36,239 nucleotides of DNA, taken from the NCBI GenBank assembly GCA_009377645.1, contig WHTQ01000040.1:1-36239 (forward strand). Reading direction: 5' to 3'. The stretch is from Micromonosporaceae bacterium. Its GTDB lineage: Bacteria > Actinomycetota > Actinomycetes > Mycobacteriales > Micromonosporaceae. This document shows, piece after piece, positions 19,549 to 30,342 of the stretch. The notes beneath the pieces are model-generated. The model made no database searches. It was not told the origin of the DNA and was given only the letters and a program-made list of their open reading frames with translations. The stretch's first letter is position 1. Each line of letters begins with the position of its first letter. The translations under genes were made by a program, and so were the position numbers.

Positions 19549-20199
19549 TCAGCCGGGCAGGCGCGCGGACAGCGCCCCGTACACGAGCTCGGGTGGCAGC
19601 CAGTCGACCAGGTCGCGCAGGACGAGGTCGTCGGTGAGCAGGTAGCCGGTGGTGGCCGGCCAGCCGATCCCGACCAGCCAGACCCCCCGCGCCTCCCCGG
19701 CGTAGGCGCTGCACCCGTCCGCCGACGGAATCGACCACAGTGGAGTCGGATGGCCGCCCGCCCGGACCTTGGCGTGGGCCGGCCGGCCAGCCATCGCCTC
19801 GGCCAGCCGGGGCCCCGGGTCCGGCCCAGGCAGGCCGGCGTAGTGGCTAGCCAGGCCCACCCCGGGCGCCTCGGACACCAGCAGCAGGTCGGCCGGCCCG
19901 CCGCTCAACGGGGCCGGCCCGGTGATCGCGAGCACGGTGGCCCGGACCCCGTCACGCTCGTCCCCGACCCAGCCCACCCCGGCCACGGTCCAGCCGGCCG
20001 GCAGCGGCCACGGGCACCACAGCGGCACCCGGTTGCGGTGCCGGGCCACCTCGTACACGGCCGCCGCCATCACCTCCGGGCCGATGTGCGCGGGCAGGTG
20101 CAGGGGTGCGACCTGGCCGCACTCGTCACAGCGCCAGTCGGTGTGCATCAGGTCGGGCGGGCGCACCGAACCCCGGCACCGCGGGCAGCTCACCCTCAC
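19549..20199 (-). CDS. DUF6758 family zinc-ribbon protein
   Basis: A 216-residue actinobacterial protein. The N-terminal CPRCRGSVRPPDLMHTDWRCDECG holds two CxxC pairs, a zinc ribbon. The rest matches remembered Streptomyces homologues closely: VPLWCPWPLPAGW, GPAPLSGGPADLLLVSE, GVGLASHYAGLPGPDPGP, PAHAKVRAGGHPTPLW, GEARGVWLVGIGWP, and the ending YGALSARL. Function unknown. GTG 20199 is chosen because GAAGGGG lies five nt before it; the longer open frame upstream reads through the palindromic repeat at 20249-20298. Confidence 0.82.
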   Translation of the reverse strand: MRVSCPRCRGSVRPPDLMHTDWRCDECGQVAPLHLPAHIGPEVMAAAVYEVARHRNRVPLWCPWPLPAGWTVAGVGWVGDERDGVRATVLAITGPAPLSGGPADLLLVSEAPGVGLASHYAGLPGPDPGPRLAEAMAGRPAHAKVRAGGHPTPLWSIPSADGCSAYAGEARGVWLVGIGWPATTGYLLTDDLVLRDLVDWLPPELVYGALSARLPG

Positions 20200-20248
20200 G
20201 CCCACCCCTTCACAGTGGACCGGGCACCGGACCGAAGTCAACCCCGGC

Positions 20249-20298
20249 GTTGACCATGGACCCACGGCACGACACGCCGACGAAACCCCATGATCAAC
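20249..20298. repeat. Palindromic stop-codon repeat, copy 1
   Basis: A 50-bp element bounded by GTTGACCATGG and CCATGATCAAC, inverted repeats with one mismatch in 11. Its inside (ACGGCACGACACG...CCGACGAAAC) matches the reverse complement of the second copy at 29756-29817, but lacks 12 nt between two GACACG direct repeats. The TGA stop of the TrmH-family gene (20296-20294 on the minus strand) is the TGA of the element's terminal GTTGATCATGG. It lies between two minus-strand genes and could act as a terminator hairpin. Confidence 0.8.
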
Positions 20299-20893
20299 CG
20301 GTACGGGGGGTGGTGGCGTGGGTCTGGATCCAGGCATGCATGGCGATTCCGGACGCGACGCCGGCGTTGATCGAGCGGGTCGACCCGTACTGGGCGATCG
20401 AGTAGAGCCGGTCGCAGGCGGCGCGGGCGGCGGTGGACAGGCCGGGACCTTCTTGGCCGAACAGCAGGATGCACTGCCGGGGCAACGGTTCGGTTTCCAG
20501 CGGGCGGCTGCCGGGGAGGTTGTCGATCCCGATCAGCGGCAGGCCGGCGGCCTTGGCCCAGCCGGCCAGCTCGGCGATCGTGTCGTGGTGGCGCAGGTGC
20601 TGGTAGCGGTCGGTGACCATCGCCCCGCGCCGGTTCCACCTCCGCCGGCCGACGATGTGCACCTCGCGGGCCAGGAACGCGTTGGCGGTCCGGACCACCG
20701 TGCCGATGTTCAGGTCGTGCTGCCAGTTCTCGATCGCGACGTGGAACTCGTGCCGGCGGGTGTCCAGGTCGGCCACGATCGCCTCCACCCGCCAGTAGCG
20801 GTACCGGTCGGCGACGTTGCGCCGGTCACCGGCGGCCAGCAGCTCCGGGTCGTAGCGCGGGTGGTCCGGCCACGGGCCCGGCCACGGGCCCAC
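20294..20893 (-). CDS. TrmH-family (SPOUT) RNA 2'-O-methyltransferase
   Basis: About 199 residues of the SpoU/TrmH class, which methylates ribose in tRNA or rRNA using S-adenosylmethionine. Motif 1 is NIGTVVRTANAF, motif 2 LLFGQEGPGLS, motif 3 AQYGSTRSINAGVASGIAMHAW, where the usual SLNVSVA is SINAGVA. There is an N-terminal extension YDPELLAAGDRRNVADRYRYWR typical of the actinobacterial form. The start is uncertain: GTG 20893, or TTG 20905 overlapping the upstream stop (TTGA). The stop codon is supplied by the palindromic repeat at 20249-20298. The exact RNA target is not readable. Confidence 0.85.
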   Translation of the reverse strand: MGPWPGPWPDHPRYDPELLAAGDRRNVADRYRYWRVEAIVADLDTRRHEFHVAIENWQHDLNIGTVVRTANAFLAREVHIVGRRRWNRRGAMVTDRYQHLRHHDTIAELAGWAKAAGLPLIGIDNLPGSRPLETEPLPRQCILLFGQEGPGLSTAARAACDRLYSIAQYGSTRSINAGVASGIAMHAWIQTHATTPRTG

Positions 20894-20901
20894 CCCGACG
20901 G

Positions 20902-21411
20902 TCAAGAAAGCGCGGTGGCGAGGTCGTCGAGGAACTCCCGCTCCACCGGCGGGACCGTCTCGCCGCTCAGGCCGAGCACTCCCCCGGAGCGGGACGCCCC
21001 GAACACCCGTACCGCCACCTGCTGGATCCAGTGCCGGTAGGCGGCGGCATCGGCCGGGTCCGCGCCGCGCAGGACGTCCGCCACCCGGCGGCATTCCGCG
21101 AGCACCCCGGACCGCCGCGCCGGCGGCCCGTCCGGCGGCGCGGCCGGCTCCGGGCGGTCGTCTTCCGGCTCCGAGTAGATCGCCGCCACCACCGCCCGGA
21201 CCAGGTCGCTGTCCGACCCGCGGCCGGCGGCGATCGCGTCCAGGCCGGCGAGGCCCTCGGCGACGGTCCGGCGTGACCCGCCTTCCCGCAGCGCGATCGT
21301 CGCGATCATGATCTCGGCGGGCAGCTGGGTGAGCAGGCGCCACTTGTCCGTGGCGAACCCGTGGGCCGCGAACCGGACCGGATATCGGGGGGCTGAGCTG
21401 GCACGGGGCAT
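20902..21411 (-). CDS. Protein of unknown function, helical
   Basis: 169 residues with no family I recognise. It looks all-helical: a conserved-looking N-terminal part (YPVRFAAHGFATDKWRLLTQLPAEIMIATIALREGG), then GLAGLDAIAAG, an acidic Pro-rich link (EPEDDRPEPAAPPDGPP), and a helix ADPADAAAYRHWIQQVAVRVFGASR. There is no membrane segment. ATG 21411 has AGGAGGT eight nt upstream, a strong ribosome site. The TrmH-family gene starts at or just after its stop, so the two are coupled. Codon bias supports a real gene. Confidence 0.7.
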   Translation of the reverse strand: MPRASSAPRYPVRFAAHGFATDKWRLLTQLPAEIMIATIALREGGSRRTVAEGLAGLDAIAAGRGSDSDLVRAVVAAIYSEPEDDRPEPAAPPDGPPARRSGVLAECRRVADVLRGADPADAAAYRHWIQQVAVRVFGASRSGGVLGLSGETVPPVEREFLDDLATALS

Positions 21412-29160: not shown

Positions 29161-29166
29161 GTGCCG

Positions 29167-29760
29167 ATGAGCGCGCCGCTGACGGCCGCCGACGGCGAGG
29201 TGCTCGCCGGGCTGGCGGCCGCCGCGGTAGCCGCCCAGCTGGCCGGCCACCCCTTCGCGGGTCATCCCGCTGATGGCCATCCCCCCACCAGCCCCCTGCA
29301 CGCCCCCGGCGCCACCTTCATCACCCTCTCCACCGCCGGCCAGCTGCGCGGCTGCATCGGCAGCCTGGAAGCGCAGCGGCCGCTCTACCGGGACGTGACC
29401 CGCAACGCCGTCCGGGCCATGACCGACCCGCGGTTCCGTCCCGTCAACCACACCGACTGGCCGCACCTCGACGTCTCCGTCTCCGTCCTCTCCCCACCCG
29501 AACCGATCCCCACCCCCACCCCCGAAACCCTCCTCGCCGCCCTCCGCCCGCACGTCGACGGCCTCACCCTCACCTCCGGCCGCCGCCGCGCCACCTTCCT
29601 CCCCAGGGTCTGGGAGAAGCTCCCGACCCCGGAACAGTTCGTTGCGGCGCTGCTCGCCAAAGGTGGCTGGCCCCCGGCCCGCTGGCCGCCCGGCCTGTCC
29701 GCCCACCGCTACACCGCCCGCGAGTTCCACAACCTCGCCCCCCGCCCCACTTGGCGTTGA
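29167..29760 (+). CDS. amrA: AMMECR1-domain protein (AmmeMemoRadiSam protein A-like)
   Basis: 197 residues. The conserved strand GATFITLSTAGQLRGCIGSLEAQRPL contains the RGCIGS motif of the AMMECR1 family, followed by NAVRAMTDPRFRPV, LDVSVSVLSPPEPI, and the ending TFLPRVWEKLPTPEQFVAALLAKGG. In the AmmeMemoRadiSam set it occurs with a Memo-like and a radical SAM protein; neither is next to it here. The second half uses CTC, CCC and TCC codons heavily where neighbours use CTG and CCG, suggesting separate ancestry. Its TGA stop lies within the palindromic repeat at 29756. Confidence 0.85.
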   Translation: MSAPLTAADGEVLAGLAAAAVAAQLAGHPFAGHPADGHPPTSPLHAPGATFITLSTAGQLRGCIGSLEAQRPLYRDVTRNAVRAMTDPRFRPVNHTDWPHLDVSVSVLSPPEPIPTPTPETLLAALRPHVDGLTLTSGRRRATFLPRVWEKLPTPEQFVAALLAKGGWPPARWPPGLSAHRYTAREFHNLAPRPTWR

Positions 29761-29817
29761 TCATGGAGTTTCCTCGGCGTGTCGCCCGACGTGTCGTGCC
29801 GTAACTCCATGATCGAC
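29756..29817. repeat. Palindromic stop-codon repeat, copy 2
   Basis: A 62-bp element with ends GTTGATCATGGAGTT and AACTCCATGATCGAC, inverted repeats matching at 14 of 15 positions. The middle holds CGGCGTGTCG and GTGTCGTGCCG. Its TGA at 29758-29760 is the stop codon of the AMMECR1 gene, just as copy 1 ends the TrmH-family gene, in the same orientation to the gene. It can form a long hairpin and may end transcription. Confidence 0.85.
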
Positions 29818-29835
29818 GGTACGGGCGGCGGGGTC

Positions 29836-29847: not shown

Positions 29848-30342
29848 ATGGCGCACCCGCTGGTCGAGGAGGCCATGAAGAAGGCGGCCGTGGCATGGGT
29901 CGCGGTCGCCGGGGCACCAGCCCGGCTCCTCTGGTGCCTGCCGCTCGACGGTGCGCTGTGCCTGGTCAGTGGCCCCGGCGAGCAGGAGGCGCCGGGCCTG
30001 GCCACCGCCGACCAGGCGCTGGTGACGCTGCGCGGCGACCACGGTGGGCGGATCGTCACCTGGCCGGCGCAGGTGCGGCGGCTCGACCCGCAGAGTGAGC
30101 AGTGGGCCGAGGTCGCGCCGCAGCTGGCCGGGAAGCGGCTGAACGCCAGCGGCGACGCGGCGGCGGTGGTGGCCCGCTGGGCGGCCGAGTGCGTGATCAC
30201 CACGCTGACCCCGGCGGGCGACCCGGTGGAGGCCGGCCCCACCCTGCCGGCAGGGTCTCTGGCCGAGCCGACCCGGGACACACCGGCCCGGCGGCGGACC
30301 CGCCGGCCGTTCCGGCTACACCGGGTCCGTCCGCCCCGCTGA
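29848..30342 (+). CDS. Conserved actinobacterial protein of unknown function
   Basis: 164 residues. The start MAHPLVEEAMKKAAVAWVAV and the parts LDGALCLVSGPGEQEAPGLATADQALVTLRGDHGGRIVTWPAQV and WAEVAPQLAGKRLN read like a small beta-barrel, possibly of the FMN/F420-binding split-barrel type; this is only a fold impression. The final 35 residues are basic and disordered. ATG 29848 is chosen by its -10 box and fits the remembered start of homologues. It lies just after the palindromic repeat and is convergent with phzF-like (31 nt between). Confidence 0.65.
   Translation: MAHPLVEEAMKKAAVAWVAVAGAPARLLWCLPLDGALCLVSGPGEQEAPGLATADQALVTLRGDHGGRIVTWPAQVRRLDPQSEQWAEVAPQLAGKRLNASGDAAAVVARWAAECVITTLTPAGDPVEAGPTLPAGSLAEPTRDTPARRRTRRPFRLHRVRPPR

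Follow-up and report, generated by a model that had tools for sequence, protein, structure and literature searches.

Among the short palindromes dispersed in bacterial genomes, REPINs and BIMEs, which are associated with RAYT transposases, are built of paired inverted tips that form a hairpin and occur in tens to hundreds of copies. REPs tagged with GTAG or CGTC are described in passages of Di Nocera et al. 2013 (PMC3733652) as residing mostly between codirectional or convergent genes and less than 20 bp from the 3' end of the gene upstream, where the GTAG termini often provide a TAG stop codon; some REP copies are reported there inside ORFs. The Rickettsia palindromic elements (RPE), as introduced in parts of PMC10969869 and PMC3733652, are palindromic repeats inserted in frame in protein genes. 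Finally, the mycobacterial MIRU are portrayed in a passage of PMC12548453 as apparently mobile and located at the borders of coding regions.

The element considered here was found in a window of 36,239 nucleotides, which is contig WHTQ01000040.1 of a Micromonosporaceae bacterium. Like the GTAG/CGTC REPs of those passages, it is a dispersed palindrome with the same placement, which provides stop codons and has intragenic copies. With respect to the general description of REPs, the copies are indeed numerous, dispersed, mostly extragenic and near the 3' ends of codirectional or convergent genes. Since the placement, the TAG stops and the intragenic copies are reported in these parts of PMC3733652, the phenomenon as such is already known. 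What differs from the described REP-like behaviour is the tip, which is TGATCATG-like and paired, with no unpaired GTAG/CGTC tag (a C often precedes GTCGATC, but inside the palindrome and not as a tag), together with the length of about 62 bp, the use of TGA as the stop, the lack of a linked RAYT and the hosts, which are Actinobacteria; the main text of PMC3733652 does not contain this word. With REPINs/BIMEs the element shares the paired inverted tips forming a hairpin and the many copies; unlike them, it has no GTAG tag, and two comparison genomes (G001 and G002) carry repeats without any match to a Y1 transposase. Its presence in frame inside conserved protein genes recalls the RPE as they are presented in part of that literature; compared by description, it is nevertheless shorter (about 62 vs about 150 bp), belongs to a high-GC host and has most of its copies at gene ends. 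It also resembles the MIRU of the passage cited in being an actinobacterial repeat that appears mobile and lies at the borders of coding regions; in contrast, MIRUs are said there to insert at start codons and to couple translation, whereas the element is mostly found at stops and forms a hairpin. In the open-access literature we found no description of such elements in Actinobacteria, nor, among the matches listed, any description that gives the tip sequence as text.

Copies in the window and in other genomes

Both copies in the window (the second read on the minus strand) begin with the tip GTTGATCATGG; their positions are collected in Table 1 together with those of the genes concerned. In an alignment of copies, the tips of the element are paired and read GTTGATC/GTCGATC. 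An earlier note on this DNA had claimed that the TGA in the tip is the stop codon of an AMMECR1 gene at one copy and of a TrmH-family gene at the other, with element and upstream gene codirectional in both cases; coordinates, stops and orientation are all correct, and the short copy does lack 12 nt located between direct repeats, as the same note had it. When folded in the sense of the gene, the RNA of 29750-29825 reaches -38 kcal/mol (z -5.2) and that of 20240-20306 reaches -30 kcal/mol (z -2.1). An Rfam scan of the window returned tRNA only, with no match of the element over the gathering score. The AMMECR1 gene and its downstream neighbour are adjacent in 12 of 21 other loci of the family, and the TrmH-DUF6758 pair is retained at 28 of the 29 examined.

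Table 1. Positions of the element copies, the genes that they end and further features named in the text; the E values come from a covariance model for which both window copies were among the 16 sequences used to build it
Feature	Position	Strand	Remarks
AMMECR1-domain gene ended by the element	29161..29760	+	start approximate; Pfam AMMECR1 4e-38
Full-length element copy, 62-bp palindrome	29756..29817	+	covariance-model E 2.7e-20, second-best match of the genome
TGA in tip of the full-length copy, stop of the AMMECR1 gene	29758..29760	+	
Gene downstream of AMMECR1, no Pfam match	29848..30342	+	likely ATG at 29848
TrmH/SpoU-family methyltransferase gene ended by the element	20294..20905	-	start approximate; SpoU_methylase 4.4e-24
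Short element copy, 50 bp	20249..20298	-	12 nt shorter in the loop region; covariance-model E 1.1e-11
TGA in tip of the short copy, stop of the TrmH-family gene	20294..20296	-	TGA 20296-20294
DUF6758 gene downstream of TrmH	19549..20190	-	start approximate
Other-subtype palindrome at the TrmH end of G002	L242:2148-2209		numbering along the TrmH gene
Element copy in CofGH, G000	L054:1501-1562		same linker as in G002, opposite orientation
Element copy in CofGH, G002	L096:2501-2562		same linker as in G000, opposite orientation
Y1 (IS200/IS605-type) transposase gene, G000	L350:2767-3174		near contig end

The arm, when read outward, contains an ATG (29809-29811 in the window, within CCATGATC), as do the arms of the element generally, so that the palindrome can resemble a gene start. 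The ORF caller took this arm ATG as the start of the gene after the element, which is probably wrong.

A genome-wide search of the window's genome (G000, 4.97 Mb) gave 47 occurrences of exact GTTGATCATGG vs 1 for the pattern read backwards. The covariance model, built from 16 copies and run over G000, recovered 49 distinct places, of which 39 were kept as well preserved, the 10 weak or half copies being dropped before counting. The same model found 28 close copies in G002, a genome of the same genus, and diverged relatives of the element in G001. The sets used for comparison comprise 20 of the 28 G002 copies (the eight left out comprise seven weaker copies, two of them intragenic, and one located at the edge of a contig), 20 G001 copies out of a longer list, and 50 distinct copies of 142 in G079, a genome of another family in the same class. 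Because G000 and G002 have some element sites in common, a share of the copies may have been inherited from long ago. G000 additionally contains one member of the G001-type subfamily (GCTGATCATGAACTTAGG...; L352:902-962), ~14 nt behind a called gene end.

In the class as a whole, the pattern GATCATGR...YCATGATC was matched in 129 of 296 genomes, with at least 10 matches in 28 of them and 100-142 in four, and its reversed control gave 0 throughout; because many single matches resemble coding DNA, only multi-copy genomes were counted as carriers. Among the matches listed, the palindromes that have GATCATGGASTT arms come from Micromonospora, Hamadaea, Geodermatophilus, Jiangella and further records, most of them actinobacterial, from which a set of named loci was drawn (n=80 among the matches listed, at least four being G002 itself). 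Further genomes of the class (G130, G157, G219, G229 and G199) contain GATCATG tips on different stems, for instance GATCATGGCGTT... and GATCATGACGTTCGC.... Palindromes of this kind suggest a superfamily in which the tips are common and the stems change.

Position, frame and orientation relative to genes

Gene ends were taken from our own small codon-usage ORF caller, which reproduced both gene ends in the window; it may fuse genes or misplace starts, and several of its 5' distances, -9 and -55 among them, probably reflect starts called wrongly. The 39 copies of G000 are distributed as 18 sense and 1 antisense between codirectional genes, 8 between convergent genes, 2 between divergent genes and 10 inside ORFs, one of the latter (C54) just 24 residues before the ORF end. 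When only the 29 non-intragenic copies are considered, a gene 3' end lies on the left side in 26 and divergent genes surround 2. These 26 gene ends facing the left arm fall exactly at -5, that is, in the tip, in 10 cases and inside the element at -49 in 2, and the remaining 14 stop 5-23 nt before the element. The tip thus supplies the stop of a neighbour at 10/39 copies in G000, and does so at 9/20 in G002, 4/20 in G001 and 13/50 in G079. For the named loci, among the matches listed, the 98 facing arms include 11 with the stop in the tip, 47 with the stop 0-30 nt before, 38 with the stop further away and 2 with the stop inside.

Genes that face the element and read into it use the tip frame at 11/14 arms in G000, 10/11 in G002, 4/6 in G001 (p 0.10 alone) and 15/21 in G079. 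Pooled, this amounts to 40/52 arms vs the 1/3 expected per frame, or to 40/56 (p = 6e-9) if the doubtful intragenic cases are taken as read-through. Orientation is biased as well: the sense to antisense ratio between codirectional genes is 6:1 in G002 (p 0.125 alone) beside the 18:1 of G000, and copies behind a separate stop are in sense orientation 11:1. Inside the ORFs of G000, on the other hand, orientation is 5:5 (Fisher p 0.01 vs codirectional placement), and in G001, whose copies are near-symmetric, the ratio of 6:4 is not clear. The outcome is therefore not the random placement relative to stop codons that the earlier note had named as a refutation; both tip-TGA placement and gene-end placement of the element exceed chance.

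At the RNA level, the sense strand folds more stably than the antisense strand in 33/39 copies of G000 and 17/20 of G002; for gene-end copies alone the counts are 23/26 and 16/16, and for intragenic copies 7/10 and 1/3, respectively. Part of this difference could be due to an ancestral loop composition. Stem mismatches at gene ends of G000 comprise 26 G-U vs 5 A-C, compared with 5 vs 5 in G002. Furthermore, codirectional copies of G000 have a GTT tip in 17/18 stop-facing arms vs 5/18 far arms (p 8e-5), which can mean that stop codons are kept, that sense pairing is kept, or both; the tips of G002 are nearly all GTT, and the contrast between near and far tips is seen in one genome only.

Orthologous sites and copies inside genes

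AMMECR1 matches were obtained in 21 other genomes of the family, of 60 searched, and the ends of the orthologues lie at most 5 codons from the end of the window gene in 16/21 cases for AMMECR1 and in 19/29 for TrmH, the others ranging from 8 codons shorter to 48 longer. GATCATG at the stop is absent from all 21 AMMECR1 and all 29 TrmH loci of these genomes. The TrmH orthologue of G001 has its stop at exactly the codon where the window gene ends. That of G002 also ends at this place, but its stop is a TAG and belongs to a 62-bp palindrome of a different subtype (GTTGATCTAGGG...CCCTAGATCGAC), a related element with another stop. As for the other stop-supplied genes, about 16-17 of the 21 non-window genes were compared, with four comparator genomes per set: the orthologue end was at most 5 codons away in 39/50 comparisons and at most 10 in 45/50, with outliers reaching +41 and one of +301 (mtnA of G001, whose stop is 301 codons further on). 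Since the orthologues end near the same place, the element mostly takes over natural gene ends. Exact coincidence was found in 7/50 comparisons, most of the others being a few codons apart, and exact targeting of stop codons was rejected on this count; with few exact ends and most a few codons off, insertion near the end followed by selection of the frame is preferred.

Individual loci illustrate these relations. The rplK stop of G002 is at the same codon as in its four comparators, which are without the element there. At the mtnA end, G000 retains a remnant of the element, which is present at this position in G002, and in G010 a related hairpin with a TGA tip follows the orthologue of one G002 gene. 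A GATCATG flagged in the rplK locus of G000 belongs to the start region of the next gene.

Copies in frame are present in the genes for glutamyl-tRNA reductase (HemA), a class-I glutamine amidotransferase (GATase), which we take to be TrpG/PabA-like, CofGH and NAD synthase (NadE), and also in those for PriA, a hydantoinase A/B fusion, a molybdopterin oxidoreductase and an ABC ATPase. The orthologues of these genes are either without the extra residues or have the element at the same place, the latter being the case in G002 for the amidotransferase, PriA, CofGH and the hydantoinase. In CofGH and the hydantoinase, the G002 copy stands at the same place in opposite orientation to that of G000, which for CofGH would point to independent insertion or to inversion. 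For some of these genes, the molybdopterin enzyme among them, the insert region varies between orthologues and allows just a loose comparison. Intragenic frames avoid the tip TGA, or the tip has GTC instead of GTT.

Mobility, termination and the meaning of gene-end copies

Regarding the enzyme that might move the element, the Y1 transposase profile (PF01797) has one match in G000 and zero in G001 and G002. The G000 gene is followed by an ORF that presumably represents the start of a TnpB partner, and no GATCATG was found in the 3.4 kb around it, a region ending at the contig end. A RAYT was therefore rejected as the mover for now, this sole Y1 match having no repeats around it, and the Y1 search identified no mobilising enzyme linked to the element in G000, G001 or G002. 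Nothing stood out as larger transposon ends in the single-tip stretches L349, L351, L352 and L353, for which gene positions and tips were considered, and no target duplication was identified at the element copies.

The earlier note had gone further and regarded the element as a portable gene terminator. Part of this proposal stood, as the element does recur at gene 3' ends, mostly in sense, with a TGA and a strong hairpin; the rest fared less well, because the stop is supplied in a quarter or so of the G000 copies (just 10/39), because as many lie inside called ORFs, and because there is some evidence against termination itself, in the missing T-run (42/42) and in the copies that separate conserved neighbours, rplK and rplA for example. 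That the hairpin ends the transcription of the upstream gene is decidedly unlikely, even though a strong hairpin stands at the stop or 5-23 nt behind it in 24/26 G000 gene-end copies, mostly in sense, and even though parts of PMC8355165 argue that hairpins without a U-trail terminate in some bacteria, naming M. tuberculosis and Streptomyces. Of the two features of an intrinsic terminator, the GC-rich hairpin is present and the following U-tract absent: a T-run of 4 or more within 20 nt occurs after 0/42 gene-end hairpins, the next 15 nt after the right arm are 12-13% T and 46-57% G, and a terminator scan flagged neither copy in the window. U-tracts are nevertheless rare behind other genes too, with TTTT within 60 nt in 7/72 control 3' regions (GATCATG itself in 16/72), and since these controls are also T-poor, the missing U-tract argues weakly against a classic terminator. 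Copies are also located inside gene pairs kept in other genera, namely AMMECR1 with its neighbour, TrmH-DUF6758, metK-priA and rplK-rplA (4/4 comparators), which we regard as evidence against efficient termination without its amounting to proof; full termination in pairs of the rplK-rplA type would silence the next gene unless it had its own promoter. Intragenic copies, moreover, must be transcribed through, though there the ribosomes could melt the hairpin.

We lean, by a little, towards a REP-like element that is retained at the ends of genes because it provides a hairpin in sense together with a stop of its own. The quantities computed for it are copy number, location, frame bias, orientation bias, in-frame intragenic copies and element-free orthologous sites; from these we infer mobility, selection at the RNA level and a function at the 3' end. 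The element would be a non-autonomous, dispersed actinobacterial palindrome with TGATCATG-type tips that is inserted or copied to many places and survives where it is least harmful. Inside genes, the survivors would be those in frames without a stop, whose translation gives a linker of about 20 residues. At gene ends, with the tip TGA in one frame, an insertion into the last codons would end the protein at once, and insertions just behind a stop would likewise persist. With the copies mostly in sense, the mRNA of the upstream gene would have a strong hairpin on its stop or immediately after it, and this hairpin may be selected as a 3'-end RNA element that blocks 3' exonucleases and limits readthrough, rather than as a classic terminator. 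Against such a role at the 3' end speak the lack of a G-U excess in G002 and, among the matches listed for the named loci, the few tip stops (11/98) and the stop-to-element distances running to 60 nt and more.

A somewhat unlikely alternative dispenses with any use to the host: the element would be a purely selfish REP/MITE-like repeat, and placement, frame bias and TGA would be leftovers of purifying selection. Since the tip TGA adds no residues in one frame while the other frames add many, the frame bias (40/52 arms) would follow from harm alone; several intragenic copies are in regions variable among orthologues, and REPs of other bacteria are placed alike according to passages of PMC3733652. 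By itself, however, this alternative predicts neither the 18:1 sense orientation, nor the 11:1 behind separate stops, nor the fact that TGA has been lost mostly from the far arm. The orientation and the difference in stability of the sense RNA likewise remain unexplained if the palindrome is a site at the DNA level, where a transposase or a nucleoid or repair protein binds the TGATCATG tips and gene ends are just free space. We consider this highly improbable, although the tip is common across genera where loops and stems differ (the tip searches having fixed GATCATG in the pattern itself), the T before GATC, a position left free in the search pattern, is kept in 100/100 arms of G079, and the flanks are C-rich before the element and G-rich after it. 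A bolder version of the reading we lean towards treats the tip as a frame-dependent switch, in which TGA frees the hairpin as a 3' end and any other frame gives a harmless linker whose translation unfolds it; TGA and sense pairing would be under selection at gene ends, and the mobile repeat would have turned into a gene ending that is used ready-made again and again, with a non-RAYT enzyme as its mover. As a whole, this version is rather unlikely.

If the sense-hairpin reading is true, Actinobacteria would have their own large REP-like group, with up to 142 pattern matches per genome, and the gene-end copies would offer a natural experiment on a hairpin placed exactly at the stop codon in the mRNA of high-GC bacteria. 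The intragenic copies would likewise bear on the way in which repeats come to lie in frame within housekeeping proteins of bacteria other than Rickettsia. For annotation, some caution is appropriate, as the last residues of some genes may derive from the repeat.

The idea that copies entered the loop of a hairpin already present was considered for G000 and G002 and rejected, the complementarity of the flanks being no better than that of shuffled partners; in G001 and, among the matches listed, in the named loci it is slightly better, and in G079 it is clearly above shuffled partners out to about 12 nt. In the latter genome (L354-L402), many stems extend via copy-specific complementary flanks, up to 22 nt, and each of these copies looks as if a separate inverted repeat were centred on it, an effect that is weaker with shuffled partners.
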